A DNA stretch of 28,260 nt from the IMG/VR virus record IMGVR_UViG_3300020370_000430, positions 1 through 28,260 of that record; one strand, written 5' to 3'. The stretch comes from a virus. This document shows, in pieces, positions 12,086-28,260 of this stretch. The position numbers and the translations under genes were made by a program. The notes beneath the pieces were generated by a model, which saw nothing but the letters and a program-made list of their open reading frames with translations, was not told where the DNA came from and ran no database searches. Within the stretch, counting starts at the first letter, position 1; each line of letters opens with the position of its first letter.

Positions 12086-12086
12086 T

Positions 12087-14654
12087 ATGTTAGTTCAGCA
12101 AATGTTGTTCATGGCTAGTGGCGATGGATTTGCTGGAGAACAGCAATCTTGGACTAACGCTAGTAATGCAACAAATAATCTTTTTTATACTTGGACAGTT
12201 CCTGCTGGAGTAACTGCTATATCTGCAGTTGTTGTAGGTGGTGGAGGAGGTGGTAGTCCTTCTGTATCTTTTTATGATGGATCGGATGAATATCAAACAA
12301 GACCAGGTTCAGGTGGAGGAGGTGGTGGATTAACTTATAATAATAGTATACCTGTTACTCCTGGTGAAACTTTAAATATTTGTGTTGGATGTGGTGGAAG
12401 TTATGGAATTAGTAATAGTAATGATCAAAAAGACCAAGCGAATGCTGGATGGGGTGGTCACTCTTGGATAAAAAGGGGTGGAACAGTTCTTATAGGTGCT
12501 ACTGGGGGAAGAGGTGGACAAGGTGCTGGTGATTATGATTCTGTAGGTGGAAATGGACCAAGTGGATCTCATACTTCAATACCTCCCGAATATACTAATG
12601 CTGGAGGAACATTTGCTACTGGTGGAACAGGTAGGCGTGGTGGAAATACTGGTTGGCCTAGAAACGCAGGATCTGGTGGAGGTGCTGCTGGATATGGTGG
12701 TCCTGGTGGTGCTGGTGGTAATTCTGGTGGAACAGGTGGTGGTGTACTTACTGGTGGTCCCGCAACTGCTGGTACATCAGGCGGTGGAAGTGGTGGTATG
12801 AATCCAACTGTTGGAACGCAAACTTATGGTGGATATGCAGTAGGAACTTCTGTAGGATTTGGTGGAGGAGGTGTAGGTGTAGATGGTAAAGGAGATAGTG
12901 GTGCTCAAGTTTCATTAGGTCCTGGTAAAGGTGGATCAGGTGGAACTGATGGTGCTCCTGCTCTTGTAGGAATAGGAACTACAAATGGAAGGTTGGATAA
13001 GGATGGTGGATATTTTGGTGGAGGTGGAGGTGGTGGAAACTATTTCCCTGATAATGCCAGAAAACATGGTGGATATGGAGGTGCTGGTGCTGTAAGAATA
13101 ATCTATCCAGGTGAAACTTATGTCTTCCCAAATAAAGATGGATTGCCCGATCCTGGACCATTAAATTATACTACAGCAAGTCCGAATACTTATAGTTGGG
13201 TAGTTCCTGATGGAATTACTAGTATTAATTTGTATGCTGTTGGTGCTGGTGGTGGAGGAGGTTGGAATAATTATCAAGGATCTGGTGCTGGAGGAGCAAT
13301 TGTTTGGACTGATGGTGTTTCTGTTACTCCAGGTGAAACTTTAACTCTTGGTATAGGTACAGGTGGAACTGGTGGAACACAGGATAATGGTGGTAATCAA
13401 CCTGCTGGTAGTACTTATTACGGATTACTAGGACAAACTACATTTGTTAAACGCCACAGCAATGGATCTGTTATATTAAAGGCTTACGGTGGTGGTGGAT
13501 CTGGTGGTAGAGGTGGTACTGGTATCTTTAATGAAGGTATTGGTGGAGTTATAGATGGTGGTGATGCTTATAATTATTCAGGAATACAAAATCAAGGTGG
13601 TGGAACTGGGGAATATCAATGGCATCAAAGTGGAAATAATGGATACAAAGGAAAAACTGGTGCTGGATCTGCTGGTGGTAATGGTGGTACTGGAGTTGGT
13701 ATAACAGAAGGTTATACTGGTGCTGCTGGTGAAACAGTTGGTAGTAATGGTGGTGCTGGTGGTTTTCCAGGTGGAGGAGGTGCATCAGGACCTACAAATG
13801 GTAGGGGTGGACATGGTGCAGATGGAGCGTTAGTTATAAGTTGGGCTGCTGCATCTAATGGTGGTGGACCTATTGGTGGAGGAAGTACCTATATTGCAGG
13901 AAAGCATAGTATTAACTTTATATCAGATGATGATGAAGATTGGATTGAATATACACCATCAGATTCTGACGGTTTCCAGTTAGGTAATGGTGATTGGACT
14001 ATAGAGTTCTGGCATAGAGGAAGTAATTTTACTTATCAGCAATATGATCAACGTAATTTACAAAGAGGAAATGCAACCTTTATAGAAGGTCTTGATTCTA
14101 GTAATAATAGTGTATGGAAAATAGGTGCTAGTCAACCATCAATTACCGATACTATATCTTGGTATGAAGGAACTGGTGAATCACCTAAGTATACTTCAAC
14201 TGGTAATGAATGTTTTGGTAATAATGGTGCGAATAATTGGAGACATTATTGCTTTATGAGAACAGGTAATTCTATACAATATCGATATGGTGGCACTCGT
14301 TATTATCCATATAATACTTCTGATTATACTACATCTATGAATGATACTAGTACTGTTAAGATAAGAATTGGTGGAGGAACAGGAACCTATAGTAAAGGAA
14401 TTCATGGAATATTATCTAATGTTCGTATAGTTAGAGGAACCGCACTTTATGTTAATGACATTTATGAAGCAAACAGGAGAAATCCTTTCACAGAAATAGA
14501 AAGTGGAACAATATTATTATGTGCTAATGGTTCTAATATAACTGATGCATATTGGGGTGCTGGTCAGGCTGCTGGTACTGTTACTACTAGTGGAAGTAAT
14601 AATGCAACTTATAGTAACTTACATCCTTTTGATACTTATGATGATGGTAATTAA
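12087..14654 (+). CDS. Large adhesin with two polyglycine domains and a LamG-like domain
   Basis: This 855-residue protein contains two consecutive polyglycine domains. The first (about 30-341) opens with FYTWTVPAGVTAISAVVVGGG and closes with GAGAVRIIYPG. The second (about 366-588) opens with TYSWVVPDGITSINLYAVGAG and closes with GADGALVISW. Residues about 605-845 look like a LamG/concanavalin-type jelly roll: NGDWTIEFWHRG, WRHYCFMRTGN, and GILSNVRIVRGTALY are typical strands. LamG-like domains often bind sugars, so glycan binding is plausible. The start at 12087 lies one base after the previous stop; a later ATG at 12111 (MASGDG) is possible but has no ribosome binding site. Unlike the other polyglycine proteins here, it lacks the MGR N-terminal module. 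Confidence 0.8.
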   Translation: MLVQQMLFMASGDGFAGEQQSWTNASNATNNLFYTWTVPAGVTAISAVVVGGGGGGSPSVSFYDGSDEYQTRPGSGGGGGGLTYNNSIPVTPGETLNICVGCGGSYGISNSNDQKDQANAGWGGHSWIKRGGTVLIGATGGRGGQGAGDYDSVGGNGPSGSHTSIPPEYTNAGGTFATGGTGRRGGNTGWPRNAGSGGGAAGYGGPGGAGGNSGGTGGGVLTGGPATAGTSGGGSGGMNPTVGTQTYGGYAVGTSVGFGGGGVGVDGKGDSGAQVSLGPGKGGSGGTDGAPALVGIGTTNGRLDKDGGYFGGGGGGGNYFPDNARKHGGYGGAGAVRIIYPGETYVFPNKDGLPDPGPLNYTTASPNTYSWVVPDGITSINLYAVGAGGGGGWNNYQGSGAGGAIVWTDGVSVTPGETLTLGIGTGGTGGTQDNGGNQPAGSTYYGLLGQTTFVKRHSNGSVILKAYGGGGSGGRGGTGIFNEGIGGVIDGGDAYNYSGIQNQGGGTGEYQWHQSGNNGYKGKTGAGSAGGNGGTGVGITEGYTGAAGETVGSNGGAGGFPGGGGASGPTNGRGGHGADGALVISWAAASNGGGPIGGGSTYIAGKHSINFISDDDEDWIEYTPSDSDGFQLGNGDWTIEFWHRGSNFTYQQYDQRNLQRGNATFIEGLDSSNNSVWKIGASQPSITDTISWYEGTGESPKYTSTGNECFGNNGANNWRHYCFMRTGNSIQYRYGGTRYYPYNTSDYTTSMNDTSTVKIRIGGGTGTYSKGIHGILSNVRIVRGTALYVNDIYEANRRNPFTEIESGTILLCANGSNITDAYWGAGQAAGTVTTSGSNNATYSNLHPFDTYDDGN

Positions 14655-14671
14655 TGCAGATGTTTAAGCAC

Positions 14672-14679
14672 AATAAATA
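14672..14679 (+). promoter_or_regulatory. Possible late promoter box (AATAAATA)
   Basis: AATAAATA sits in the 45-base gap, 20 bases before the ATG at 14700. A perfect 12-base palindrome, ACTTTATAAAGT (14679-14690), follows immediately. One mismatch to the T4 late consensus. Confidence 0.45.
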
Positions 14680-14699
14680 CTTTATAAAGTAATCATATA

Positions 14700-15503
14700 A
14701 TGGCATTCAATAGAGAACTTTCACAATTTGGTCATTATCTAGTAGTTGATGATACTACAGGTAAGATTGCTATTACTAGTACGACATCACCTAATGTTGG
14801 TATTGGGACTATAGATCCTCAATTCAAACTGGATGTCGATGGTGATGTTAGGGTTAGTGGTAATTTAAATGTTTCTGGTGACCTAGTATATGATGAAGTA
14901 ACTGGTAGAAATATTCAGATTAGTGGATTCTCTACTTTTATTGGAGTATCTACCTTTAAGGATAATGTATTTGTTGATGGTGATATAGATTTTGGTGGTG
15001 ATTTATATAAGGATGGTAGATTATTTGTTACTGGTGTTGGTATTGGATCTACATCAGTCAACCCAAACTCCGCACTTATTGGAACAAAAATTGGTGCTGG
15101 ATATACTGATATTAACTTTGTTGGTACTGGTTTAACAGTTACTGGTTATGGTACTACTATAGTTGTTGATTTTAATAACCTTGCTGTTAGAGCTGATGCT
15201 ACAATTCCACCATTAACTGTGCTGTCTACAGATGCTGTACTACAGTCTAATAGTGGATATCTTACAGACACTGTTGGTGCTGGATTTACTGTGACTCTTC
15301 CTCTTGTTAAAAATGCTGGAGACTTTATTGAGCTTCATGATACGGAAGTAAGTTGGGGCATAAATAATCTTATGGTTGCAACCCAAAATAATGAGCAGTT
15401 TAAGAACTATTCAGGCGTGATTGATTCTCCTTTAGCATGTGATGTCGATGGTGCTACTGTAAAATTAGTTTGGACTAACACTTATTGGAGGGTATTTGCA
15501 TGA
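14700..15503 (+). CDS. Short tail fibre-like structural protein
   Basis: The 267-residue protein starts MAFNRELSQFGHYLVVDD. It contains SPNVGIGTIDPQFKLDVDGDVRVSGNL split across residues 30-58, a motif family that recurs in phage fibres, including those of cyanophages, just before shaft repeats. Short repeats with STFIGVSTF and VDGDIDFGGDLY follow. The C-terminal domain (about 175-267: TDTVGAGFTVTLPLVKNAGDF, then NLMVATQNNEQF) is a beta-structured terminal module. It is much shorter than the 1169-residue fibre and may be an adaptor or short fibre. A possible late promoter lies upstream, and its TGA overlaps the next gene's ATG. Confidence 0.75.
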   Translation: MAFNRELSQFGHYLVVDDTTGKIAITSTTSPNVGIGTIDPQFKLDVDGDVRVSGNLNVSGDLVYDEVTGRNIQISGFSTFIGVSTFKDNVFVDGDIDFGGDLYKDGRLFVTGVGIGSTSVNPNSALIGTKIGAGYTDINFVGTGLTVTGYGTTIVVDFNNLAVRADATIPPLTVLSTDAVLQSNSGYLTDTVGAGFTVTLPLVKNAGDFIELHDTEVSWGINNLMVATQNNEQFKNYSGVIDSPLACDVDGATVKLVWTNTYWRVFA

Positions 15504-15886
15504 CAATGTTCCTAAGTGGAAGCATGCTTTCTGGCACTAGCGGTGGCGGTGGCGGTGGAGGGCTTCAAATTGGTCAGCAGGATACATTTACTGTTCATGC
15601 ATTAAGGAGAGATGATGATGGTATGCTTAGGTATACTAAAGTAAAGACTACTGATGAAACTGTAACCGATGTATCTCATAGGCTTGATGGGACACCTTAC
15701 CCAGAGTTCTTAGAAGGATTGGATTATGTGGATGAAACCACTGAAGAAAAAACTTATAGGAACAATGAGTTCGATAAATACCAACAGTTCAGATTTGATT
15801 TTAGGAGAACATCCTATTATATTGATGATGATGGATATCTAACTGTATCTTTTAGTGATCATGATTATTCCGCAGGACCAAAATAG
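15500..15886 (+). CDS. Small virion protein with N-terminal glycine linker
   Basis: I place the start at the ATG at 15500 (128 residues) because it forms an ATGA overlap with the previous stop and has a GGAGG sequence (15487-15491) about 8 bases upstream; an in-frame TTG at 15485 would lie over that ribosome binding site. The product begins MTMFLSGSMLSG, then has seven consecutive glycines, then a compact acidic domain rich in Asp, Tyr and Arg (HALRRDDDGMLRYTKV; FRFDFRRTSYYIDDDGYLTV). I do not recognise the family. The tight coupling between two fibre genes suggests a virion or fibre-assembly role. Confidence 0.72.
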   Translation: MTMFLSGSMLSGTSGGGGGGGLQIGQQDTFTVHALRRDDDGMLRYTKVKTTDETVTDVSHRLDGTPYPEFLEGLDYVDETTEEKTYRNNEFDKYQQFRFDFRRTSYYIDDDGYLTVSFSDHDYSAGPK

Positions 15887-15902
15887 GATTTAAGAAAAAA
15901 CA

Positions 15903-18900
15903 ATGGCTGAATTTAGACTTGGCAGATTAAAATTTAATTGGCGTGGCGATTGGCAAACTACGACTGCCTATGTCATTGACGACATCATAAAATATGGTGC
16001 TAATACTTACGTCTGTAAAAAGAATCACACATCTGCTGATGCTGAAACTTCTTTTTACTCTCTGGATATAACTGATAATTGGACTTTACATACTGAGGGT
16101 CTTGCTCAAAAAGGTAATTGGACTGGTGGGCAATGGTATAAGATAAATGATGTATACAAATATGGTAATACTCTATATCGTGTAACTTCTGGACATACTT
16201 CATCTGGTTCATTTACTGAAGCAGATACTATTGCTCATGCAACTGAGTACTTACAGTCATTTAACTTTGAAGATACTTGGGATGCTGCAACACAGTATCA
16301 GGATGGAGATGTTGTAACATATGGTGGTTATACTTATGTTTCAAAGAGTGTTCATGTTAATAAACCACCTTCATACAATCTAACAAATGATTGGGATATT
16401 ATAACTACTGGATTTAATGTAGTTGGTACTTGGGATTCGTCGACAGATTATAAGCAAGGTGATTTAGCATTATATGGTGGATATTCTTATGTTGCTATCA
16501 CTACTAGTACAAATAGTACACCTGCAACAAGTACTTCTAATTGGAGTTTAGTAACTAAAGGTGTTGCTTGGAAAGGTAATTGGGATTCAGCAGTAACTTA
16601 TCAGTTAGGTGATGCTGTAAAGAGATTAAGTAATAGTTATATTGGTGTTGCTACTGCTGGTAGTTTAAATCAAGACCCTTCAACAGATAGTGCTGGTCTT
16701 TATTGGAGTATGTTGGCTGAGGGTGCAGCAAACAATGTGATGACCACCCAAGGTGACCTTGTTTACTATACAACAGGTGCTGCAAGATTACCTGTAGGAA
16801 GTAATGGACAAACATTAACAGTAAGTCCAACTGGAATTCCTGGATGGGAAAATAATAGTGTAACGCATCCAGTTTATTATGTAACAGAAGAAGGAAGCGA
16901 TGAAAATGATGGTTCAAACATTAGTAGAGCATTTCATTCTATTAGACATGCTTGTTCTGTTGCAGAAGGTCCAGCATCTATCTATGTAAAGGCTGGAAAT
17001 TACGCAGAACAACTTCCAATTGTAGTTCCAGAAACTGTTTCTATAGTTGGTGATAACTTAAGAACATCTAAGATTAATCCTGCTAAACATTACGCACATA
17101 CTTTTGTATCTGCTGCTGTGGATTCAGTTACTCCTAATGCTGGTAGCTCAGTTACACCTGCAAGTGGAACAACTTACGATTCTACAACAGGAGATCTTGT
17201 ATTAGAAATTGGAACTCATAGTTTAACTACTGGTAATACAATTACAATTGGAAATGGTACATTAATATTTACTTGTGATCAGGATAATCATGCTACTCAG
17301 CATAAGTATCCAAGAGCAAAAGATCCTGCATTTGGTGCAACTCTTTCTATCACTGCAACAACAGGTACAACAATTACAGTTAATGTTGGTAAAGGTAATG
17401 CATCTAAGCATCAAGATATAACATTAGCATCTGCACCTTCTGCAACTTATACACCAACTGCGATTAATTATAATCCAACATCTGGTGATATGGTTGTGAC
17501 TATTGGAGATCATACTTTAACAACTTATGATAGTATTAGGATTAGTGCAAATTCTTTAGTATTTACTTGTGACTATAATGGTGATGGTAATACAACTCAG
17601 AAGACATATCCAAGAGCATCTGGTGCTAATACATCAGACGGTGAAGATTATGCATATAATACTGATTTACCAATTACTGCTGTAACTGCAGATAGTATTA
17701 CTGTAAATGTTAATGGTGGACAAGGTGCTATTACAGATACATCGGTACATAATTTTGTATCTGGTGGTGCTGGTTCGATTCAGAAAGCATCTCCTTATGT
17801 TTCCTATGGATCATCAATAAGAACTGGTGCTGGAGATAAGTGGGCTGTTGTTTTAGATTCAGATTACGCTGAGAAGAAAATACAGATCTATAATATTGCT
17901 GGTGGAGAATGGACGACATCAGATACTTGGGAAAATGGTGTATCAGATATAACAATTACTGCAGTTGAGACTAGACCTAACGAACATTCAACAATGTTCC
18001 AGTTAAGCAACGCAACGATGCTTAAGGATATTTTGATGGAAGGTCTTACTGGATTTACTCCAGCAGGTACAGTCGCAACTAAAACTTGTAGTATTAGTGG
18101 ATCAATAGTTACTGGTACTGATTTATTTCCAGATTTAGTTGGTACAACAGTAACTGGTGCTGGTGTTTCAACTGGAACAAAGGTTAGTGGATTTATTGAT
18201 GCTACTCAAATTGAGGTTGATAAGCAACAAAATCTTGGTGCAACTGCATTAACATTTACTGCAAATCAATATGATCCTAATAATGCACATATTAAAGGTG
18301 TGTTTGTTGCATTAAATCCAGCAAGTAGAGTTATTAAATCTCCATATGTATCAAACTGTTCTGCAAAATCAACTAAAGGTGTTGGTGCAATTGTAGACGG
18401 TGGAGTTCATAGACAATTTATAGATGGATCATCGACACCTTCTAACAAATCTATCGTGTTTGACTCATTTACAAACATTCACGATGAAGGAATGGCATTC
18501 TGGATCACAGATGGTGCTGTGGCAGAAACAGTTTCTTGTTTTACATACTATAACCATATAAGTTATGCTGCTACTCGTGGTGGAAGACTTAGATCTCTTG
18601 TTGGAAACAGTTCATGGGGTAAGTATGGTGTTGTAAGTTCTGGATTCAGTCCAATTGAAAAAGCAAGAGAAGGTGTTATTGAAGGTTTAACACTTACAAT
18701 TGATGTTGATACTCAAGTAGGAAGTGGATTCCAAGTAGGAGAAAGAATTAGAGGTAATACTTCTGAAGCTTGGGGTTATATTCATACTGTTCAAGGAACT
18801 ACTTTAAATAAGATTTTCTATTCAATAATTAGTGAAGGTGCTGTTGGAGTTGGTACAGGATTTGCTCCTGGTGAAACAATCACTGCACAAACTTCAGGCA

Positions 18901-20282
18901 CAACTGCTAATCTTATTAATAATCCAAGTGCAAACGAAGGACAAAGTGGAAGAATACTTGTTCTTTCTGGATTAGGAACTTCACCAACTCTTGAAGTTAA
19001 TGGTAGTATTGAGTTTATTACTGGATCTGGTAATGGTGGATATAATAGTGATAATATTAGTGGTGCAGATCCATTTACATTTGTGATTTCTAATGTAAGT
19101 CAAACTGGACCTGTTGGAAAAGGTAATGTTTCGATTGATAGGGGACAATGGACTACTGCTGGTGCTGCTCATACTGGTGGATCTACAACCTTTATTAAGT
19201 ATCCAATTCAAACAGGATCTTTCACACTACTAACTCCAGCAACTCAAAGTGATACTACATTTAGTGTTAGTACTATTAGTGGATTTAACCCTGGTGAGTA
19301 TTGCTTATCACCAACAAATGAATTATGTAAGGTTGTTAGTTTCCCAACTGCAAACTCAATGGAGGTTGTTAGAGAACAAGATGGTGCTAATACAGCACAA
19401 GGATGGCCAATTGGAACACAATTTACTTCAATTGGTTCAACTAGTTTTGTTAGTGCTGCTGAAGTTTTGAAAGACTTCACTGCTTCTGACACTTCATTCA
19501 GAGCAACATTATCTCAAAGATTTGAGGATGTTGTTGGTGCTTATATGAAGTTTGATGATGAGTTTATGAAAGTTACTGGAGTAACAACAGATACTTACGG
19601 TACTACACAAGTAATTTTGGTTGAAGAAAAACCTGCTAAAGCATATGATCAACAGAATATCAAGATTCGTTACATCTTTAGTCAGGCAAGATTAACTGGA
19701 CATGACTTCTTACAAGTAGGAACTGGTGGAACATCCACAACTAACTGGCCATCAGCACCAATACAAGACCCTGTTCAGACACAGGAGATTACAGAAGACT
19801 TCCCAGGTAGGGTATTCTATGTTTCTACTGATGAACAAGGAAACTTTAGGGTTGGTAAGTACTTCCGTGTAAACCAGGCAACTGGTGCTGCAACATTGAA
19901 TGCTAACAGTTTCGATCTATCTGGTTTGACTTCAATTCGATTGGGTTCAATTGGTGCTCAGTTAGGTGCTCAAGTTAATGAGTTCTCAACTGACGGAACA
20001 ATGTCACAAAATAGTAATGAGAAAGTTCCAACACAGGCTGCAGTTAGAACTTATGTTGAGACTGAAGGAGCTGCTAAACTACTACAGGCACAATCTCATA
20101 CTGCTTTGGGATTATCTACTGAGAGAGCACATACTCAGGCTGGTATAGCAACAGCATTGAATACAGCAATAAGTCATCTTACTGCTGGTATTGGAACTGT
20201 TAATGCAACTATTACACAAAATAGTAATGAGGTTGCTAGGAACGTTCAAATCTCTGAATTCTTTATTGGTAATTGCCAATAA
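15903..20282 (+). CDS. Giant structural protein with carbohydrate-binding-like repeats and beta-helix
   Basis: This 1459-residue protein starts MAEFRLGRLKFNWRGDW. Residues 12-253 hold five repeats of the pattern W-x5-Y-x2-GD-x-V-x-Y-G-x2-Y, which resembles CBM5/12-type carbohydrate-binding modules. From about residue 325 (VYYVTEEGSDENDGSN) a right-handed beta-helix like that of pectate-lyase-fold phage proteins begins (SIYVKAGNYAEQLPIVVP). Two related domains (about 417-500 and 520-610, each with a FTCD and a YPRA element) interrupt it. No catalytic acid cluster can be assigned from sequence alone, so depolymerase activity is only possible. The last 80 residues are predicted helical (TYVETEGAAKLLQAQSHT) and may trimerise. 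Together with its position, this indicates a large tail or fibre-network protein that binds host polysaccharide. Confidence 0.82.
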   Translation: MAEFRLGRLKFNWRGDWQTTTAYVIDDIIKYGANTYVCKKNHTSADAETSFYSLDITDNWTLHTEGLAQKGNWTGGQWYKINDVYKYGNTLYRVTSGHTSSGSFTEADTIAHATEYLQSFNFEDTWDAATQYQDGDVVTYGGYTYVSKSVHVNKPPSYNLTNDWDIITTGFNVVGTWDSSTDYKQGDLALYGGYSYVAITTSTNSTPATSTSNWSLVTKGVAWKGNWDSAVTYQLGDAVKRLSNSYIGVATAGSLNQDPSTDSAGLYWSMLAEGAANNVMTTQGDLVYYTTGAARLPVGSNGQTLTVSPTGIPGWENNSVTHPVYYVTEEGSDENDGSNISRAFHSIRHACSVAEGPASIYVKAGNYAEQLPIVVPETVSIVGDNLRTSKINPAKHYAHTFVSAAVDSVTPNAGSSVTPASGTTYDSTTGDLVLEIGTHSLTTGNTITIGNGTLIFTCDQDNHATQHKYPRAKDPAFGATLSITATTGTTITVNVGKGNASKHQDITLASAPSATYTPTAINYNPTSGDMVVTIGDHTLTTYDSIRISANSLVFTCDYNGDGNTTQKTYPRASGANTSDGEDYAYNTDLPITAVTADSITVNVNGGQGAITDTSVHNFVSGGAGSIQKASPYVSYGSSIRTGAGDKWAVVLDSDYAEKKIQIYNIAGGEWTTSDTWENGVSDITITAVETRPNEHSTMFQLSNATMLKDILMEGLTGFTPAGTVATKTCSISGSIVTGTDLFPDLVGTTVTGAGVSTGTKVSGFIDATQIEVDKQQNLGATALTFTANQYDPNNAHIKGVFVALNPASRVIKSPYVSNCSAKSTKGVGAIVDGGVHRQFIDGSSTPSNKSIVFDSFTNIHDEGMAFWITDGAVAETVSCFTYYNHISYAATRGGRLRSLVGNSSWGKYGVVSSGFSPIEKAREGVIEGLTLTIDVDTQVGSGFQVGERIRGNTSEAWGYIHTVQGTTLNKIFYSIISEGAVGVGTGFAPGETITAQTSGTTANLINNPSANEGQSGRILVLSGLGTSPTLEVNGSIEFITGSGNGGYNSDNISGADPFTFVISNVSQTGPVGKGNVSIDRGQWTTAGAAHTGGSTTFIKYPIQTGSFTLLTPATQSDTTFSVSTISGFNPGEYCLSPTNELCKVVSFPTANSMEVVREQDGANTAQGWPIGTQFTSIGSTSFVSAAEVLKDFTASDTSFRATLSQRFEDVVGAYMKFDDEFMKVTGVTTDTYGTTQVILVEEKPAKAYDQQNIKIRYIFSQARLTGHDFLQVGTGGTSTTNWPSAPIQDPVQTQEITEDFPGRVFYVSTDEQGNFRVGKYFRVNQATGAATLNANSFDLSGLTSIRLGSIGAQLGAQVNEFSTDGTMSQNSNEKVPTQAAVRTYVETEGAAKLLQAQSHTALGLSTERAHTQAGIATALNTAISHLTAGIGTVNATITQNSNEVARNVQISEFFIGNCQ

Positions 20283-20290
20283 CTTACATC

Positions 20291-20298
20291 TATAAATA
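20291..20298 (+). promoter_or_regulatory. T4-type late promoter box (TATAAATA)
   Basis: An exact match to the T4 late consensus TATAAATA lies 28 bases before the ATG at 20327, in the 44-base gap after the giant structural gene. An AAGGAAAG ribosome binding region follows it. Confidence 0.75.
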
Positions 20299-20326
20299 GT
20301 ACAAGACAAAGGAAAGTTTTAAAAAA

Positions 20327-20647
20327 ATGGCATCTGGTATTTTAGGACAAGCCGCATTGTCAGCAAGTACAAATACTACGGTATATACGGTTCCTGCTTC
20401 AACACATGCAGTTGTCAATATTAATGTTTTGAATCGATCTGCTACTGACGCTGTCACAGTAAGGTTGGCATTATCTTCAACAGGTAGTCCTGGTAATGCA
20501 GAGTATATTGAGTATGACGTAGCTGTTCCTAAGACTGCAGTTATTGAGAGAACAGCAATATCTCTTAATGCAGGAAAAAATATCGTTGCTTATACTAGTG
20601 GATCTGAAGTATCCATTAGTGTTTATGGTATAGAACAAGCGGTTTGA
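20327..20647 (+). CDS. Small virion structural protein
   Basis: This 106-residue protein starts MASGILGQAALSASTNTTVYTVPASTHAVVNINVLNR, has predicted beta-strands throughout, and ends VSISVYGIEQAV. The TVYTVPASTxAVVNINVLNR pattern followed by AGKNIVAYTSGSEVSISVYG is a recurring small beta-sandwich in phage structural clusters. It has no enzyme motif and no membrane segment. It resembles in style the partial protein at the left edge of the window. An exact late promoter box lies upstream, supporting late expression. It may be a fibre adaptor or decoration protein; the exact site on the virion is unknown. Confidence 0.75.
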   Translation: MASGILGQAALSASTNTTVYTVPASTHAVVNINVLNRSATDAVTVRLALSSTGSPGNAEYIEYDVAVPKTAVIERTAISLNAGKNIVAYTSGSEVSISVYGIEQAV

Positions 20648-20682
20648 TAATGTTGATTTATAAAACTACTGAGGTATAAGAA

Positions 20683-21765
20683 ATGGCAGCAGACGTATTA
20701 ACATATAATGCTCTGGCAGAAATAAACCAAGAACTTCGAGCTGAATCTGTAGGATTGACATCTGCGATTACTGTAGCACTGGAAGACATAGGAGGTGCAG
20801 GACCTGGAGGACCACCTCCTGCAGCTTCCGAGGGTGCTGTTGGACTTCAAGAAATAATGAAGGGTGCTGGATCACCTAATCTTGGTCTTTCTTGTATGAT
20901 TCCTCGATTTGCTGAAGGTCAAACTAGTTGGACTGGTGGATTTCAGGTTTGTGATACTTCCCAGTATCATAGATGTGGTTGTTGCTGTCAATGGACTGTT
21001 CCAGGTGGCGTAACTTGTGCTCGATTCCAAATTTGGGGTGCTGGTGGTGGATCAGGAACTGGTTGTTGTTGTGGCGGATCTCCTAACGGTGGATCTGGTG
21101 CATATGCATCTGTTATTATGCCTGTAACTTCTGGAGAACAATATACTCTTTGTGCTGGTTGTGCTTACTGTTGTTATACAACTAGGTCACAAATGACTGC
21201 TGATGGTGGTGATTCTTACGTTCAAGGACCTGGATTAACTAACTTCTGTGCTGAAGGTGGTGAATCTAATCTATTCTGCGAATCTAAAGTTAGATGTTTG
21301 AGAGGACCTAACGAGCAAAGTGCTTGTAAATATATGGGATCTTGTATTTGTAATAGTGGAACAGATTATTGTTCTGAACAACAACAAACACCTGGTACTG
21401 GATATCCAGAAGGTAGAAGAGAAGCAAATTATCAATCTACTGCAAATTGTAAGACTCATTATGGTACTGTAAGTACTGGTTCTACAATATACGGATTACC
21501 TGGACAATTCTCATACTTTGCTTATGATTATGGTGCTGATCAAGCATGTCATAGGCATCCTGGTATGTATGGATTCCCAGACTGCTCTTGCTGTAGTGCA
21601 TGTATGAGTAATGAAGCAAGTGGATGTTGTTGGCAAGCATGTTATTGTTCAGCAATGTGCTGTATTCCTGGTGCTGGTGCATGGGGTTACTCAACTTGCG
21701 GTGGAGATACTAATGGATGTGCTGATATTGGTAAAACTGGAATGGTATGTGTATCCTATATGTGA
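20683..21765 (+). CDS. Cys-rich, Gly-rich adhesin-like protein A
   Basis: This 360-residue protein contains about 36 cysteines, or 10 percent of residues. They lie in clusters such as RCGCCCQW, GCCCGG, CAGCAYCCY, CSCCSAC and SAMCC. The N-terminal 33 residues (MAADVLTYNALAEINQELRAE) look helical and resemble the start of the paralogue at 22503. A Pro/Gly linker (GGAGPGGPPPAA) leads into a domain whose QWTVPGGVTCARFQIWGAGGG opening and GKTGMVCVSYM ending match the polyglycine domains elsewhere in the window, but with glycine and aliphatic positions studded with Cys. No signal peptide is present. The cysteines could form disulfides after release or bind metal. GAGGT (20671-20675) is a good ribosome binding site. 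Likely a receptor-binding or capsid/tail decoration protein; that role is inferred. Confidence 0.78.
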   Translation: MAADVLTYNALAEINQELRAESVGLTSAITVALEDIGGAGPGGPPPAASEGAVGLQEIMKGAGSPNLGLSCMIPRFAEGQTSWTGGFQVCDTSQYHRCGCCCQWTVPGGVTCARFQIWGAGGGSGTGCCCGGSPNGGSGAYASVIMPVTSGEQYTLCAGCAYCCYTTRSQMTADGGDSYVQGPGLTNFCAEGGESNLFCESKVRCLRGPNEQSACKYMGSCICNSGTDYCSEQQQTPGTGYPEGRREANYQSTANCKTHYGTVSTGSTIYGLPGQFSYFAYDYGADQACHRHPGMYGFPDCSCCSACMSNEASGCCWQACYCSAMCCIPGAGAWGYSTCGGDTNGCADIGKTGMVCVSYM

Positions 21766-21772
21766 TACACAT
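21747..21772 (+). terminator. Hairpin over the stop codon, possible terminator
   Basis: A perfect 9-bp stem, ATGTGTATC (21747-21755) with GATACACAT (21764-21772), spans the stop codon of the Cys-rich gene, with an 8-base loop. There is no T-run, so it may instead protect the 3' end of the message. A late promoter box begins four bases later, which fits a boundary between transcription units. Confidence 0.4.
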
Positions 21773-21775
21773 CCT

Positions 21776-21783
21776 TATAAATA
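21776..21783 (+). promoter_or_regulatory. T4-type late promoter box (TATAAATA)
   Basis: An exact TATAAATA lies 32 bases before the ATG at 21816 and directly after the hairpin at 21747-21772. The spacing to the gene is nearly the same as for the exact box at 20291. Confidence 0.75.
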
Positions 21784-21815
21784 ACTAAAGAAAAATCAGA
21801 GAACTGTAAAAAACA

Positions 21816-22502
21816 ATGGCAAACATTACATCATCGTTTACTCATCTACTTCCAACTGAGCTATTCGTTGCTGGTATTTCTACTAACATTAGTGGTAGTT
21901 ACACATATACTGGACCTGAAGAATTTGATGTATGGGTAAATCCGCAAAGTGGTGGTATAACAAGGATTAACATTGCAATAGATCCTCCAAATGAGGCAGG
22001 TGCTGATATAAGAAAGACTATTAATGCAAAAGATAGTGCTCAATTACCTGCAGCATATATTTGCTCTCATCAATTCCATGAGAACTATCAGTGGGATTAT
22101 ACTTACACTGATGAAACCCAGAGTAATGGTGATGTATATAAAAAGATTGATAATCCAGATTTAAGAGATGCTTATGAGGCGAAGTGGAATTTTACTACTA
22201 GTTCTTGGCAATTAACTCAGATTTTAAAAGTACAAGAAAATATACATTCTGATGCTGCTAAGAAAAATAGGGATTATATTAAAACTTATGCTGATATGTA
22301 TGACTTTGGAACTGATATGAATACTAAGATAACTACTTATCTTGCTGCTATTGATACGTTCCTTGGTAATAATCCTGATTATAAAACTTGGAAGTATATT
22401 ACTATTCCAGATGCAGTAGGATCCACACCAAAGATTCCTATTGATGTTCAAGTTGAAATTAACAAAGTTTCTGGTTCTGGTATTGCAGGAGGCGTTATTT
22501 AA
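21816..22502 (+). CDS. Uncharacterised virion protein between the two Cys-rich genes
   Basis: The 228-residue product begins MANITSSFTHLLPTELFVAGIST. Its first 60 residues are beta-rich (GSYTYTGPEEFDVWVNPQSG), as in small phage domains of this type. The middle is charged and probably helical (NPDLRDAYEAKWNF; LKVQENIHSDAAKKNRDYIKTY). The end carries a short beta-rich tail (PKIPIDVQVEINKVSGSG). It has only one Cys, in sharp contrast to its neighbours. An exact late promoter box precedes it, and its stop directly abuts the next start. It may be a partner or assembly factor for the Cys-rich pair. I do not recognise a family. Confidence 0.7.
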   Translation: MANITSSFTHLLPTELFVAGISTNISGSYTYTGPEEFDVWVNPQSGGITRINIAIDPPNEAGADIRKTINAKDSAQLPAAYICSHQFHENYQWDYTYTDETQSNGDVYKKIDNPDLRDAYEAKWNFTTSSWQLTQILKVQENIHSDAAKKNRDYIKTYADMYDFGTDMNTKITTYLAAIDTFLGNNPDYKTWKYITIPDAVGSTPKIPIDVQVEINKVSGSGIAGGVI

Positions 22503-23594
22503 ATGGATGTATTAGTTTATAGTGCTCTGAATGAACAAGCAACACTAAAGAAAGAAATTCACGAAAAGCAGCAGTGTTTATTTGATCTTAAAGAAAATAA
22601 ACAACCTGAATCAAGTGGCGGCGGTGGTGGTGGAAGTTATGATGTAAATGCAGAAATTTGTGCTAAGGCATGGTTCTGCCCTACTAGTGACAATTTTGAG
22701 AAAAAAATATGGTCTTGTCCTGGTGAAATAGCTTTATGGAAACCTTATGAGGGAAAGGATTGGAGTGATGGTTTAACGGTTTGTGATTCTCAAGGATATT
22801 ATCGTTGTGGTTCTAGTTGTACTTGGAGTGTTCCAAGTGGTGCAACTTGTGCTAGATTCCAACTTTGGGGTTCTGGTGGTGGAGCAAATAAAGCTCCTTG
22901 CTGTTGTGGTCATACTCCATTTGGATCAACAGGTGCATGGGCATCTGTAATTATTCCAGTACAAAGTGGTTGGACATATACACTTTGTGGTGGATGTGCT
23001 TATTGTTGTTATGCATATACTACATCTGGATCTCAGAGATGGAGTGGATGCCCTTCTTATGTTCAAGGTTGTAAATTGGAAAATTTCTGTGCTGATGGTG
23101 GTCAAGGATCACTAGGTACTTGGAATGCTATGAGAGGTAATTACTGTACTTGTAGACTTGCTGCTTTAACTAATGATAACCAAGGTGCAAGAATATGTAA
23201 CTATGGTGGTGACTGGTGTTATACTGGTGAAACCTTTAATTGTATACCTTATATTTCTGGTGCTGGATATCACGGATCTATAAAGGATATTGAGAATCCA
23301 CAATATGAAAATACAATCTACGGATTGAGAGGTATTTGGCCAATGCAATGTTGGGATAATAATCATTATGGTTGGGAACAACACGCTCCAATTCTTGGTT
23401 CAGAATCTGATGTACTATGTTGCCCTACCTTCACTAGTGGAAACTGCTGTGGATATAACTGTGGTGCTTGGACTGGTAATGGATGTTTAAGATTTGCTGG
23501 TGCTGGTGGATGGGGTTCACACGCTATGGGTGGTGGAAACGGTCTGTGTGGAGATTCTGGTAAGTTTGGTATGGTTTGCGTTCAGTGGAAGTAG
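22503..23594 (+). CDS. Cys-rich, Gly-rich adhesin-like protein B (paralogue of A)
   Basis: This 363-residue protein carries about 31 cysteines. It begins MDVLVYSALNEQATLKKEI, a helical segment related to the start of protein A (DVLTYNALAEINQELRAE), then a GGGGGG linker. The main domain aligns by eye with protein A: RCGSSCTWSVPSGATCARFQLWGSGGG, CCCGHTPFGSTGAWASVIIP, LCGGCAYCCYAY, then QGCKLENFCADGGQ and the ending GDSGKFGMVCVQWK. Differences lie mainly in the insertions between these blocks, as expected for diverged receptor-binding tips. The ATG directly follows the stop of the 228-residue gene. It ends the structural block. A disulfide-rich or metal-binding adhesin is the best guess. Confidence 0.78.
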   Translation: MDVLVYSALNEQATLKKEIHEKQQCLFDLKENKQPESSGGGGGGSYDVNAEICAKAWFCPTSDNFEKKIWSCPGEIALWKPYEGKDWSDGLTVCDSQGYYRCGSSCTWSVPSGATCARFQLWGSGGGANKAPCCCGHTPFGSTGAWASVIIPVQSGWTYTLCGGCAYCCYAYTTSGSQRWSGCPSYVQGCKLENFCADGGQGSLGTWNAMRGNYCTCRLAALTNDNQGARICNYGGDWCYTGETFNCIPYISGAGYHGSIKDIENPQYENTIYGLRGIWPMQCWDNNHYGWEQHAPILGSESDVLCCPTFTSGNCCGYNCGAWTGNGCLRFAGAGGWGSHAMGGGNGLCGDSGKFGMVCVQWK

Positions 23595-23621
23595 TATAAC
23601 CATAACCTAACATTCTTTATA

Positions 23622-23643
23622 TGGTTGACTATATAATCAACCA
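23622..23643. promoter_or_regulatory. Inverted repeat over the -35 box
   Basis: A 7-bp inverted repeat, TGGTTGA (23622-23628) and TCAACCA (23637-23643), overlaps the -35 element of the promoter at 23625-23653. It could act as an operator. As RNA it could also form a weak hairpin behind the Cys-rich gene, but there is no T-run. Confidence 0.4.
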
Positions 23644-23653
23644 ATGGTATAAT
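23625..23653 (+). promoter_or_regulatory. Sigma-70-type promoter for the sugar operon
   Basis: TTGACT (23625-23630) and TATAAT (23648-23653) are separated by exactly 17 bases, close to the bacterial housekeeping consensus. The promoter points into the sugar genes, 24 bases before the first ATG. Unlike the TATAAATA boxes of the structural genes, it suggests early or middle expression by the host polymerase. Confidence 0.7.
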
Positions 23654-23677
23654 ATTAAACATTGAGGTTTGACTTGA

Positions 23678-24844
23678 ATGAATAAAGCTTTTTTTATTAA
23701 CGGTGGAGCAGGGCGTGTGCTGTGCTCCATTCCTGCGTTAGAAGGGTATGCAGAAACTCACGATGATTTTATAATAGTATCAGAGTCTTGGTCGGAATTA
23801 TATTTAAATAGTAAAGTATTGAGAGAAAAAGTTTTTCCTCTTGGGCATAAGGATTTATTTGAAGATCATTTAAAAGATAAGAAGATTATATCACCCGAAC
23901 CATATAGAGTAAACGAATATTTTACTCAGAGGTGTAATCTCATACAGGCATTTGATATAGAAATTAATGAACTTGATGAGATTCCTGAAACTAGGGAACT
24001 TAAGTTGGATCTTAATAAGGAAGATCAAATTAACGGACATAATGTAGTTGGTGAAGTAAAGAATACTTTAGGTAAAGATAAGGTTATTGTATTTCAACCT
24101 TTTGGACAAGGTGTAAAAGTTGAAGGGCAATTTATCTACGATACTTCTGGAAGAAGTTTTGAAATTGCTAATATTCTTAAATTAATTGAAAAACTTAATA
24201 AAGATTATGGTATTATACTTATGTCAAACATTGAGATTCCAGGTTGGCAGTCTCTTGGAATTGCGGCTCCCAAAAATATGGGATTGAATGGTTGGATGGG
24301 TGTTATAAATGCTGCTGATTATTTCTTAGGATGTGATAGTGTTGGGCAACATATGGCATACTCTTTAAATAAACCTACTACAGTTGTTATAGGATCTACT
24401 TATCCTGAAAATATATCATATCCTGATAGTAAGAAGTTTAGTATTATTGATAATGGTAAAGGTAAGAGAAAGTATAGTCCAATTAGATTAACAATGGATA
24501 TATGTGGTGATAGAACCAATGAGGATCTAATGGTTTTAGAAGATAAAACTGTAGATAGTATTATAAAGGGTATTAAGAATAAGATTGGTGTTAGTAAAAA
24601 AGATCTGTCAAATGCTTTAGGTGTAAAGAAACAAGGAGGTAGCACTTCGGGTGATTTAATAGAGAGTAATCCAAATTGGGGTGATAGAAAGGAAACTGTT
24701 TCTTTTAGTAGTCCAAAGGATTCTTCTAATGTTAAATCTGTATTGACTCCACCAGTTAAATATGATAAACCATTTGTTACTAAAACAAAAAAGAAGAAAA
24801 AACCAATTGATGAATTGTTGGAAATAGAATCAAAAAAATCTTGA
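23678..24844 (+). CDS. GT9-like glycosyltransferase (heptosyltransferase-type)
   Basis: The 388-residue protein starts MNKAFFINGGAGRVLCSIPAL, matching the N-terminal nucleotide-sugar fold of family GT9, which normally opens with a GxGDxLxxTPAL-type strand. The typical C-terminal domain feature is INAADYFLGCDSVGQHMAYSL, with Asp220, Ser221 and His225 in the place of the family's DSGPMHLA element, followed by KPTTVVIGST. GT9 enzymes transfer heptose from ADP-heptose, often to lipopolysaccharide core. Residues from about 305 form a polar, probably disordered tail with a run of five lysines. GAGG at 23664-23667 is the ribosome binding site. ADP-heptose enzymes downstream support the substrate, but it remains an inference, and the acceptor is unknown. 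Confidence 0.72.
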   Translation: MNKAFFINGGAGRVLCSIPALEGYAETHDDFIIVSESWSELYLNSKVLREKVFPLGHKDLFEDHLKDKKIISPEPYRVNEYFTQRCNLIQAFDIEINELDEIPETRELKLDLNKEDQINGHNVVGEVKNTLGKDKVIVFQPFGQGVKVEGQFIYDTSGRSFEIANILKLIEKLNKDYGIILMSNIEIPGWQSLGIAAPKNMGLNGWMGVINAADYFLGCDSVGQHMAYSLNKPTTVVIGSTYPENISYPDSKKFSIIDNGKGKRKYSPIRLTMDICGDRTNEDLMVLEDKTVDSIIKGIKNKIGVSKKDLSNALGVKKQGGSTSGDLIESNPNWGDRKETVSFSSPKDSSNVKSVLTPPVKYDKPFVTKTKKKKKPIDELLEIESKKS

Positions 24845-24852
24845 GGTAAATT

Positions 24853-26703
24853 ATGAGTATTATTGTATCTTGTAATCGTGGTCATAACGCTAGTACAACA
24901 TTGCTTGTTGATGGTGAAATTGTTTTTTATCTGGAAGAGGAAAGATTAACTAGATTTAAGAGGGATGGAACTCCTCTTATGGGATTGACAAAGGTTTTTG
25001 ATTATGTTGATCATATAGATCATTTGGTGGTTTGTCATACACATAGAGAAGGTCCACAAACGGATTGGACTGCAGAGGACATTTATAAAGGATGGATGAG
25101 AAAATTATCCAGAGGTAAGTTTCAATTTGATGTTACTTTCATTGATACTATACACCATCAGATGCATGCTGCTTGTGGATTTGTGCATTCTGGATTTGAT
25201 ACTGCTGCTTGTTTAATAGCTGATGGTGCTGGAAGTTTCTTACAATCAGATTCATTTGATGGATCTACTTTATTTGAATTTGAAACTATATTTAAAGCAA
25301 AGAAACCTCTTGAATTTGAGCAAGTTTATAAGCATTTAGGAACTGATAAATCTGTTGGTTTTAATATTATAGATGAAGATACAGGAACATATGTTACTGA
25401 ACATCCAGGTATAGTTAAAGCATATGAAGCTGTGACTAGGTATTGTGGTTTTCAGTCTATTGATGCTGGAAAACTAATGGGTCTTTCTCCTTATGGAAAA
25501 CCTAATCCTAATCTTCCTCCTATTGTGAGGGATGGTTGGGTTAATAGAGATCTTTTTATGCCTAATTATCCAAATGGTGCTTACATTATTTGTGATAGAT
25601 TTCCTGGTATGTTTAGTGTTGATGAGGAAGAGGCTCATAGAGGTAAACAGGATGCCAAATATACTGAAAATCAAAAAGATTTAGCTTATGCTATACAAGA
25701 GGCAAGTGAAATCTATATTGGCAATCTAATTGAAAAAGCAGTAGATATTACAGGTGAGAAAAATATTGTTATATCTGGTGGATATGGATTAAATTGTGTT
25801 GCTAATTATAAATTTAAACAACGATTCCCTAACTTAAATATCTTTGTTGAACCAATATCACATGATGGAGGTACATGTATAGGTGGTGCTTATTCTGTTT
25901 ATTATGATAAGTATTTAAAAAAACAGAGAGAATATTTTGAGATGAAACCTCAGAAGACAATTTATTATGGACCTCAATATAATACACAGATGTATTTACC
26001 TTATATAAATTCATTGGGTGATGATAGGATAGAAATTAGTGATGTAACTTATGATGATGTTGCTAAGGTAATTCGTGAAGGTAATATTGTAACTATCTTC
26101 CAAGGAAAATCGGAAGGTGGTCCTAGAGCACTTGGAAATAGATCTATTTTATTTGATCCTACTATTAAGGATGGTAAGGATATTATTAATAAGGTAAAGC
26201 ATAGAGAGTTCTTTAGACCATTTGCTTGTTCTATTCTTGCAGAAAAGGTTCATGATTGGTTTGATCTTGCTGGAATGGATGATACTCCACATATGATGTA
26301 TGCTGTTGAGTGTCAACCAGGTGTTGAAGAAAAGATTCCATCAGTAATTCATGTAGATGGTACTTGTAGAATACAAACAGTTGATAAGGATCATAATGAA
26401 CATTATTATAATCTGATTAGTGCATTTGAAAAACTTTCTGATACTCCTATTTTGTTTAATACCTCATTTAATCTTGGTGGTCAACCTTTAGTTGAAACTC
26501 TTGAAGATGCAATGGAGTGTTTGGGTTATAGTGAGATTAGCTATATGTATCTTCCAGAGATAGGTAAATTAATAAAGGTTGATTTTATATTACAAGATCG
26601 TATTTATGATTATGATTTTATACCTAAAGAAGGTATGAATGAATCTAATTGTAGAGACGATAATAAAAAGTCAAATTCCGATTTTTTAGTTAATGCAAAA
26701 TGA
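24853..26703 (+). CDS. NodU/TobZ-family O-carbamoyltransferase
   Basis: The full-length 616-residue protein shows both domains of the family. The N-terminal Kae1-like part has HNASTTLLVDGEIVFYLEEE (from residue 11), the metal-binding HHQMHAA (His101, His102 and His105), and IVISGGYGLNCVANY. The C-terminal YrdC-like part has GKSEGGPRALGNRSILFDP, KHREFFRPFACS, and TPILFNTSFNLGGQPLVET. Such enzymes move a carbamoyl group from carbamoyl phosphate, through a carbamoyl-adenylate, to a hydroxyl of a sugar or other small molecule. GAGGT just after the previous stop is the ribosome binding site. In this operon, carbamoylation of a nucleotide-sugar or glycan is most likely, but some family members in phages have been linked to DNA base modification, which cannot be excluded. 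Confidence 0.93.
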   Translation: MSIIVSCNRGHNASTTLLVDGEIVFYLEEERLTRFKRDGTPLMGLTKVFDYVDHIDHLVVCHTHREGPQTDWTAEDIYKGWMRKLSRGKFQFDVTFIDTIHHQMHAACGFVHSGFDTAACLIADGAGSFLQSDSFDGSTLFEFETIFKAKKPLEFEQVYKHLGTDKSVGFNIIDEDTGTYVTEHPGIVKAYEAVTRYCGFQSIDAGKLMGLSPYGKPNPNLPPIVRDGWVNRDLFMPNYPNGAYIICDRFPGMFSVDEEEAHRGKQDAKYTENQKDLAYAIQEASEIYIGNLIEKAVDITGEKNIVISGGYGLNCVANYKFKQRFPNLNIFVEPISHDGGTCIGGAYSVYYDKYLKKQREYFEMKPQKTIYYGPQYNTQMYLPYINSLGDDRIEISDVTYDDVAKVIREGNIVTIFQGKSEGGPRALGNRSILFDPTIKDGKDIINKVKHREFFRPFACSILAEKVHDWFDLAGMDDTPHMMYAVECQPGVEEKIPSVIHVDGTCRIQTVDKDHNEHYYNLISAFEKLSDTPILFNTSFNLGGQPLVETLEDAMECLGYSEISYMYLPEIGKLIKVDFILQDRIYDYDFIPKEGMNESNCRDDNKKSNSDFLVNAK

Positions 26704-27112
26704 TATTGTTTGGTGCAACGGCACATTCGATATTCTTCATCCAGGTCATATAGAACTATTCAAAGTTGCTAGATCTCTAGGAGAAAAAGTAATAGTTGCT
26801 ACGGATACTGATGAGAAGATTCGGACTGATAAAGGAGAGCATCGCCCTATAAATGATCTTCATTATAGGGTTGCTATGCTTGAGGCAATTAAGTATATTG
26901 ATGTTGTCCATACCTTTGGTAGTAGACAAGAGTTAGAAGATCTAATTGAACTATATCAACCTGATATATTATTACTTGGTGATGATTGGAGGGATGGTGA
27001 TGTAGTTGGTTGGGAACACGCTGGTGAGGTAAGACATCTTCCTAGAGTGGGAGGATATGCTAGTAGTAATGTAATCAAAAAGATTAATGAAAGTACTGTT
27101 ACTGGGAGATAG
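26693..27112 (+). CDS. hldE: Sugar-phosphate nucleotidyltransferase (HldE C-terminal domain type)
   Basis: This 139-residue protein carries the cytidylyltransferase-superfamily motif NGTFDILHPGH (residues 9-19; HxGH at 16-19). It also has the HldE/RfaE features RPINDLHYRVAMLEAI and a C-terminal GGYASSNVIKKI, corresponding to the usual STTxII nucleotide-binding end. By family, it joins AMP to a heptose-1-phosphate to give ADP-heptose. Length matches the C-terminal domain of bifunctional HldE. The ATG overlaps the previous stop by 11 bases, and its end overlaps the kinase by 26 bases. The two HldE activities are therefore split and reversed in order. A glycerol-3-phosphate cytidylyltransferase-like role is the main alternative. 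The symbol denotes only the C-terminal half. Confidence 0.82.
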   Translation: MQNDIVWCNGTFDILHPGHIELFKVARSLGEKVIVATDTDEKIRTDKGEHRPINDLHYRVAMLEAIKYIDVVHTFGSRQELEDLIELYQPDILLLGDDWRDGDVVGWEHAGEVRHLPRVGGYASSNVIKKINESTVTGR

Positions 27113-27821
27113 TTGTGAAGATGAGTACATCTATGGTAGATGTACTCGTATAAGTCCAGAAGCACCTGTGCCTGTGCTGGATTATGCTAAGATAAAAACC
27201 ACTTCTGGTATGGCTGGTAATGTATGTTTAAACTTACAATCATTTGGTATTGATATTACATTCTTAACTAATAATGAACAATTAGTAAAGACTAGATTCA
27301 TTGATGAGAAATCTAATCAACAGATACTTAGGGTTGATAATGAGGAAAAGATAAGACCTTTATTAATTCCTGTTTCCACTGATGGGTTTGATGCTGTTGT
27401 TATATCGGATTATAATAAAGGATATTTAACCACAGAAAAGATATTTGAAATTGTAGAGAGTGCAACCTGTCCTGTGTTTATTGATAGTAAGAAAACTATA
27501 CTTCCTAACAAACCTAATTGTTTTATTAAGATAAATGATGTAGAATATGAGAATCTAGATAATTATAATATAGAAAATTTAATAGTAACAAAAGGATCTG
27601 AAGGGTGTATATACAATAATATATTATATCCATCAGAGAAAGTAAAGGTTTTTGATGTAGTCGGTGCAGGAGATACTTTTCTTTCTGCTCTAGTGTTTGG
27701 ATATATAACTACTAATAATATAGACTATTCTCTTATGTTGGGAAACAAAGCGGCAGCAATTGCTGTACAACATTCTGGTACATATATTTTAAACGGAGAA
27801 GATATTGAAAGAATCGTCTGA
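27087..27821 (+). CDS. hldE: Compact PfkB-family kinase (HldE N-terminal domain type)
   Basis: The 244-residue protein starts MKVLLLGDSCEDEYIYG and contains SRISPEAPVPV-type sequence (RISPEAPVPVLDYAKIKT) matching heptose-7-phosphate kinases. It also has the QQILRVDNEE strand, ISDYNKGYL, and the PfkB active-site GAGDT (193-197; Asp196 as general base). It is about 70-80 residues shorter than the usual HldE kinase domain. By comparison with the E. coli sequence, part of the shortening is a missing stretch of about 30 residues between the first beta-alpha units and the TR(F)IDEKSNQQ strand. The family reaction is phosphorylation of D-glycero-D-manno-heptose-7-phosphate at C1. Overlaps with both neighbours imply coupled translation. 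The symbol denotes only the N-terminal half; a different sugar substrate is possible. Confidence 0.8.
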   Translation: MKVLLLGDSCEDEYIYGRCTRISPEAPVPVLDYAKIKTTSGMAGNVCLNLQSFGIDITFLTNNEQLVKTRFIDEKSNQQILRVDNEEKIRPLLIPVSTDGFDAVVISDYNKGYLTTEKIFEIVESATCPVFIDSKKTILPNKPNCFIKINDVEYENLDNYNIENLIVTKGSEGCIYNNILYPSEKVKVFDVVGAGDTFLSALVFGYITTNNIDYSLMLGNKAAAIAVQHSGTYILNGEDIERIV

Positions 27822-28164
27822 TATAAAGTTTGTTCCTAAAGGATGGGGTTACGAGAAGTGGATATGTAACACCTCAGAATATTGTGGTAAGCTTTTATTC
27901 TTTGTTAAAGGTAAGAGATGTTCTTGGCATTATCATCTTTTAAAAGATGAAACCTTTTATTTACAGAGTGGTAAGATACATCTTTTCTATGGTTTTGATA
28001 ATGATATTGCATTATCTGATAGTATAGTTTTAGAACCAGGTGATAAATTTCATATTGAAAGAAAGATGAGACATCAAATGTATGCTATGGAAGACTCTGA
28101 ATTATTTGAGTTTTCTACACAACACTTTGATTTAGATTCGCACAGAGTTTTTAAAGGAGATTAA
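27805..28164 (+). CDS. Single-domain cupin, sugar-related
   Basis: This 119-residue protein, starting at TTG (GGAG lies 6 bases upstream), overlaps the kinase gene by 17 bases. It fits the first cupin motif exactly: Gly36, five residues, His42-x-His44, four residues, Glu49, six residues, Gly56. The second motif is LEPGDKFHIERKMRH, with His90 as the likely fourth metal ligand. Similar cupins (opening with KGWGYEKWI and then YCGKLLFF) accompany sugar-phosphate isomerases and nucleotide-sugar genes in surface-polysaccharide loci. It could be a sugar isomerase, an epimerase or a sugar-binding regulator; I cannot choose among these. No ATG is available near the start of the conserved region, which supports the TTG start. 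Confidence 0.72.
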   Translation: MKESSDIKFVPKGWGYEKWICNTSEYCGKLLFFVKGKRCSWHYHLLKDETFYLQSGKIHLFYGFDNDIALSDSIVLEPGDKFHIERKMRHQMYAMEDSELFEFSTQHFDLDSHRVFKGD

Positions 28165-28260
28165 GATACTGTGCTATGTTTATGAACTGATAATCCCATA
28201 CCTTCTCTGCGATAGTTAGATATTGATATTTTCCTTTTAGATGTTCTGGGAATGGAATGT
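28151..28260 (-). CDS. hldD: 3' end of a probable nucleotide-sugar epimerase (HldD-like), truncated by the window
   Basis: On the minus strand a frame open from the right edge reads IPFPEHLKGKYQYLTIAEKV and ends at TAA (28153-28151). The sequence PFPEHLKGKYQ followed by a T-x-A position closely resembles the conserved region near the C-terminus of ADP-L-glycero-D-manno-heptose-6-epimerases, where the usual form is P-x2-L-x-G-x-YQ-x2-T-x-AD. The ending after it (WDYQFINIAQYLNLL) is unlike E. coli HldD. It overlaps the stop of the cupin gene by 14 bases in a convergent arrangement. Only 35 codons are visible and a second minus frame is also open here, so this is a tentative call; it would supply the next step after HldE. 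Confidence 0.5.
   Translation of the reverse strand, partial: IPFPEHLKGKYQYLTIAEKVWDYQFINIAQYLNLL

Follow-up and report, generated by a model that had tools for sequence, protein, structure and literature searches.

Two questions are raised by the boundary between tail and sugar genes in this virus DNA: when, and by which polymerase, the sugar genes are read, and what is contributed by an inverted repeat that lies across the -35 box ahead of them. The window, i.e. the whole stretch of 28,260 bases, is a virus record belonging to the P-SSM2-like phages of marine cyanobacteria. In the phage collection, the named relatives closest to it are Prochlorococcus phages P-SSM2 (classified as Kyanoviridae) and P-SSM5, with 79% identity in the 1.5 kb around the promoter. 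A gap of 83 nt separates the end of a tail-region gene (23594) from a five-gene heptose/carbamoyl operon (23678-28164), and the promoter lies inside this gap (Table 1). The timing bears on why large cyanophages carry such genes, as early expression would point to a host surface changed during infection and late expression to a role with virion assembly; a passage of PMC3037559 calls it not known whether phage sugar genes are functional or 'stuffer DNA'.

Table 1. Features at the boundary between the tail-region genes and the sugar operon, in positions of the window.
Feature	Position	Strand	Comment
Upstream tail-region gene, phrog_35878 (function unknown)	22503-23594	+	Stop codon 30 nt ahead of -35
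22-bp palindrome (arms 23622-23632 and 23633-23643)	23622-23643		10/11 pairs; P=0.0006 in 83 nt
-35 box TTGACT	23625-23630	+	Invariant in 15 distinct sequences
Extended -10 (TG 23645-23646, TATAAT 23648-23653)	23645-23653	+	17-nt spacer from -35
Predicted transcription start (about 23660, from -10) and 18-nt leader with GAGG 23664-23667	23660-23677	+	Leader conserved
First operon gene, GT9 heptosyltransferase-like, phrog_8954 (no PHROG function)	23678-24844	+	Profile match, predicted fold
NodU-like carbamoyltransferase	24853-26703	+	
HldE C-terminal-type heptose-1-phosphate adenylyltransferase	26693-27112	+	Score under NCBIfam cut-off
HldE N-terminal-type (PfkB) heptose-7-phosphate kinase	27087-27821	+	Score under NCBIfam cut-off
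Cupin protein, phrog_7851 (cysteine dioxygenase by PHROG name)	27805-28164	+	

The first operon gene is annotated as hypothetical in P-SSM2, and its modelled product resembles GT9 heptosyltransferases. It matches the NCBIfam heptosyltransferase III profile far under the cut-off, and its AlphaFold model (pLDDT 74.7) has GT9 enzyme chains as its best nine solved folds (e.g. heptosyltransferase II 1psw and WaaC 2h1h), with E values of 4e-9 to 2e-7 and TM-scores of only 0.41-0.56. A search of solved structures by sequence gave one chance-level match (E 0.61). Both HldE halves are encoded as separate genes in the operon. The corresponding P-SSM2 operon (PSSM2_307-312) has the first gene, the promoter cassette and most genes in common with the window, but includes an isomerase gene (PSSM2_311) between kinase and cupin that is absent from the window's operon (27087-28164). 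The tail-region genes include two proteins rich in cysteine and glycine that both belong to phrog_35878 (20683-21765 and 22503-23594), a protein whose translation carries collagen-like GPP-type repeats (3808-5118), and a subtilase-family (S8) protease gene (5115-6974), a type also present in P-SSM2 (PSSM2_297, PF00082 in its note).

The first-pass annotation described a TTGACT-17-TATAAT promoter close to ideal, and such a site is present at 23625-23653, with 11 of 12 bases matching the host sigma-70 (SigA-type) boxes, a spacing within the 16-18 nt range, and a TG ahead of the -10. It is the sole site with a score of at least 11/12 in the whole window and the best match within 12000-28260, a segment with 53 promoter-like sites in total, not above the shuffle mean of 69. 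In 30 simulations based on the window's dinucleotides, the two strands together gave a mean of 1.8 sites of at least 11/12 per window, so that the score alone is unremarkable and conservation decides, although the chance of finding such a site on the coding strand of the 83-nt gap is small (P=0.0021).

Conservation was assessed among 36 loci (the window, P-SSM2, AG-345-F15 and 33 IMG/VR loci, with L004-L006 outside the set). The promoter cassette is present in 18 of these as 15 distinct sequences, with no variation in TTGACTA, the TG or the TA and AAT within the -10, the spacer always 17, and the leader CATTGAGGTTTGACTTGA nearly invariant. A pattern scan of IMG/VR recovered 20 stretches with the cassette, all 20 ahead of the first operon gene, although the pattern contained part of the leader (CATTGAGG) and hence could hardly pick up other genes; three matches to a looser pattern (L072-L074) were chance hits at other genes and were dropped. 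More than 50 promoter bp are identical between L045 and L054, whose genes are 76% identical. Because the -35, the 17-bp spacer, the extended -10 and the leader are nearly invariant in the P-SSM2-like cyanophages, this is very probably a functional host-type promoter of the sugar operon; we infer its activity from sequence, conservation and gene content.

Host-type sites are also frequent elsewhere in P-SSM2, whose coding strand carries 32 scoring at least 11/12 and whose opposite strand carries 5 (5 simulations gave 3-11 per strand). One lies at 235229 ahead of the PSSM2_307-312 operon, and another at 192772 precedes PSSM2_254, the other sugar cluster following about 650 bp later. According to a section of PMC2984593, sigma-70-like boxes precede early genes in the T4-like cyanophages S-PM2 and Syn9, and none were found in S-RSM4. 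The window's promoter has these boxes in common with S-PM2 and Syn9, but sits between tail genes and a sugar operon and has a palindrome over its -35; it is a promoter of a known kind, interestingly placed.

The same section takes cyanomyovirus early genes to be transcribed by unmodified host polymerase, and late genes via NATAAATA. Upstream of 23678 no T4-type late box ([ACT]TAAATA) is present within 70 nt. The proposal that the structural genes instead carry late boxes holds in a looser form: exact TATAAATA occurs only twice in the window (20291 and 21776; shuffle mean 4.4), both copies 36-40 nt upstream of tail-region gene starts, while the looser [AC]TAAATA precedes, by no more than 70 nt, 5 of the 14 listed gene starts ahead of the operon. 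This looser box is strongly strand-biased in P-SSM2 noncoding DNA (41 on + versus 3 on -; here and below, coding and noncoding DNA were split from simple ORF calls). Given the conserved host-type promoter, distinct from these boxes, and the use of unmodified host polymerase by cyanomyovirus early genes, early or middle expression of the operon is likely in the P-SSM2 lineage, in keeping with the different time that the first-pass annotation proposed for the sugar genes. Unmodified host RNA polymerase could then read the operon ahead of, or independently of, the gp55-type late promoters, giving a short-leader transcript that begins near 23660 and spans the five genes.

Other lineages differ in what lies upstream of the first gene. 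Its relatives (the best 80 of 124 were kept, and sets were thinned at 75-80% identity) form 49 clusters, of which 16 have TATAAT only, 15 a late box only, 4 both, 12 neither and 2 the cassette, a TATAAT by itself meaning little in AT-rich DNA; one of the two cassette clusters also bears a late box. The host-type promoter here, together with late-type boxes in some other lineages, makes sugar-gene timing testable in cultured P-SSM2, for which a published infection time course is cited in passages of PMC5082946 and PMC7238727.

That the promoter 'isolates' the sugar operon was too strong a claim. No terminator lies between the tail-region gene and the promoter in the window, late read-through into the operon is therefore to be expected, and isolation from late transcription is incomplete. 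An inactive promoter, with late read-through out of the tail genes as the sole source of operon transcripts, would suit this 30-nt gap without a terminator and the late boxes upstream, but the strong conservation of the promoter and the terminator found just upstream of the cassette in 10 of 22 loci, which would cut read-through, make it very improbable.

The inverted repeat proved larger than first noted. Arms of 7 bp (TGGTTGA/TCAACCA at 23622-23628 and 23637-23643) are present as annotated, but the left arm covers only 4 of the 6 bases of the -35, and a 7-bp repeat by itself carries little weight (P=0.047 for 83 nt); these arms are the outer part of the near-perfect palindrome of 22 bp in Table 1. 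Across relatives, no stretch of the core promoter varies more than the palindrome's right arm. The window, L059 and L061 share a repeat of the type TGGTTGACTAT/ATAATCAACCA, with a close variant in L052 and L058; L050, L051 and L053 have an odd-centred type (GTTGACT-N5-AGTCAAC), and L015, L045 and L054 a type with perfect 10-bp arms and a 14-nt loop. Near-perfect palindromes are found in few relatives, the remaining loci show less, and L002, L003, L049, L057, L060, L062 and L064 have little or no repeat. L051 and L052 are 96-97% identical on both flanks, yet carry different repeats; with the promoter shared by L045 and L054, promoter-region sequences seem to recombine.

Control by a DNA-binding protein had been suggested for the repeat. 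A dimeric protein of phage or host would bind the palindrome and block the -35, and the dyad symmetry suits this, as do the 10-bp perfect arms of the L015, L045 and L054 type and the repeats at P<0.05 by permutation in 8 of 17 distinct promoter types. Neither conserved half-sites and spacing nor repeated copies were found, however: conservation within the core promoter is lowest in the right arm, half-site spacing shifts by 1 bp among promoter types, the exact 20-base core occurs in only 4 IMG/VR contigs (every one at the operon promoter), a second copy was not found in the window, and P-SSM2 matches with up to 2 mismatches fall under the reversed-pattern control (10 versus 23). Recombining repeat types and the lack of other copies argue against one conserved operator, and the comparative pattern is explained at least equally well by an RNA hairpin. 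The operator claim is weak, its support not going beyond symmetry, and we regard this reading as distinctly unlikely. A scan of genome contigs for a host origin of the palindrome gave 7 matches, none with a cyanobacterial title.

It is somewhat unlikely that the palindrome has no function at all, being an allele of a fast-changing spacer that mirrors the conserved GGTTGAC by chance. The loci with little or no repeat and the different repeats of the close relatives L051 and L052 are as this reading would have it, but the combined permutation test over 17 types gives 7e-8 (the types are not independent), and the hairpin formed by the palindrome falls under our cut-off solely in loci with a terminator. 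Nor is the palindrome readily explained as a dual promoter, in which its centre doubles as a late box and gives both early and late expression. The centre is CTAAATAA in L015, L023, L045 and L054, and overlapping early and late promoters have been proposed for cyanomyovirus middle genes (in a passage of PMC2984593), but in the window the centre is CTATATAA, and in P-SSM2 noncoding DNA CTATATA (6 on +, 2 on -) and CTATATAA (3 and 0) show a small bias compared with the late box (41 and 3). This reading is improbable.

The remaining reading places the palindrome in RNA. In the window it is predicted to form a hairpin of 7 bp (-7.1 kcal/mol). All 12 loci that lack an upstream terminator keep such a hairpin (-5.9 to -14.4 kcal/mol), versus 3 of the 10 loci that have one, a contrast that includes near-identical loci (10 and 9 distinct sequences) and a cut-off of -5 kcal/mol picked after the values were seen. 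Terminators were classed as hairpins of -10.7 kcal/mol or stronger ahead of a T-run; L058, with a weak candidate (-5.7), was classed as lacking one, and L046 was dropped with too little upstream DNA. Hairpin energies differ between the two classes (Mann-Whitney 0.007; 0.014 for distinct sequences), and the kept hairpins include G-U pairs in some cases and three geometries. In a gene-tree test 4 independent pairs gave an average of 2.8 as predicted and 0 opposite, which is not significant (sign test 0.125-0.5), and the contrast is therefore suggestive only. P-SSM2 shows an enrichment of hairpins adjoining the -10, but pooled relatives do not, and a general rule of this kind was rejected.

The window's hairpin lacks the T-run expected of an intrinsic terminator, and the ribosome site is unpaired to the same degree (0.25) in read-through RNA and in the operon's own transcript, showing no translational lock. 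Any role would therefore be at the end or in the stability of the tail mRNA. Read-through transcripts from the upstream tail genes would fold into the hairpin, the operon's own transcripts would lack it, and in loci with no normal terminator the hairpin may mark or stabilise the tail mRNA end. We infer any such role from the comparative pattern and propose it tentatively, as a possibility of somewhat less than even probability. For the combination of a genuine SigA/sigma-70 extended -10 promoter with a palindrome that is a variable allele acting most likely on RNA, the sequence evidence suggests about an even chance.

The window's arrangement is akin to the lock of T4 gene e, described in a section of PMC3014915, in that a hairpin surrounds the promoter and is missing from the gene's own transcript, but it leaves the ribosome site uncovered; lock-like cases occur only in relatives. 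In L087, L104, L112, L113 and L136 the read-through RNA is predicted to have its ribosome site sealed by a long stem upstream of the first gene. The stem arms of L087, L104 and L113 enclose a late box, like T4 gene e (same section of PMC3014915), and in L087 the short leader is predicted closed too (0.15 open). As a rule for the first gene such locks are not significant (5 of 27 versus 6 of 77, p=0.15).

Long inverted repeats are nevertheless over-represented ahead of the first gene in relatives, in 7 of 41 clusters (one being a cassette) versus 3 of 215 for other genes at a stem-length threshold of 14. Thresholds of 12, 16 and 18 give 10 of 41 versus 13 of 215, 5 versus 2, and 4 versus 0, respectively; this metric was devised after a first one, pairs spanning late boxes, had failed to separate the first gene (9 of 16 versus 59 of 97 others, p=0.79). 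The tail/sugar boundary may be an exchangeable insulator cassette, whose elements (promoter, an RNA hairpin nested in the promoter, terminator) are swapped for one another by recombination, such that read-through RNA in the P-SSM2 lineage would end in or carry a structure absent from the operon's transcript, and distant lineages would sometimes do likewise with a sealed ribosome site. Most distant relatives are without a long repeat, 34 of 41 clusters being under the threshold, which argues against this generalization, and we consider it unlikely.

 Upstream of the P-SSM2 sugar operon, in contrast to the window, a terminator is joined to a second promoter (235158), and the palindrome of that operon is poor. 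In L028 a 14-bp stem upstream of the first gene resembles a terminator with its T-run, and its loop holds a late box (AATAAATA). P-SSM2 (NC_006883.2) has terminators merged with promoters or -10 boxes near 48611-48640, 67190-67225 and 235158-235187, with the hairpin at the -35 position and the T-run leading directly into TATAAT.
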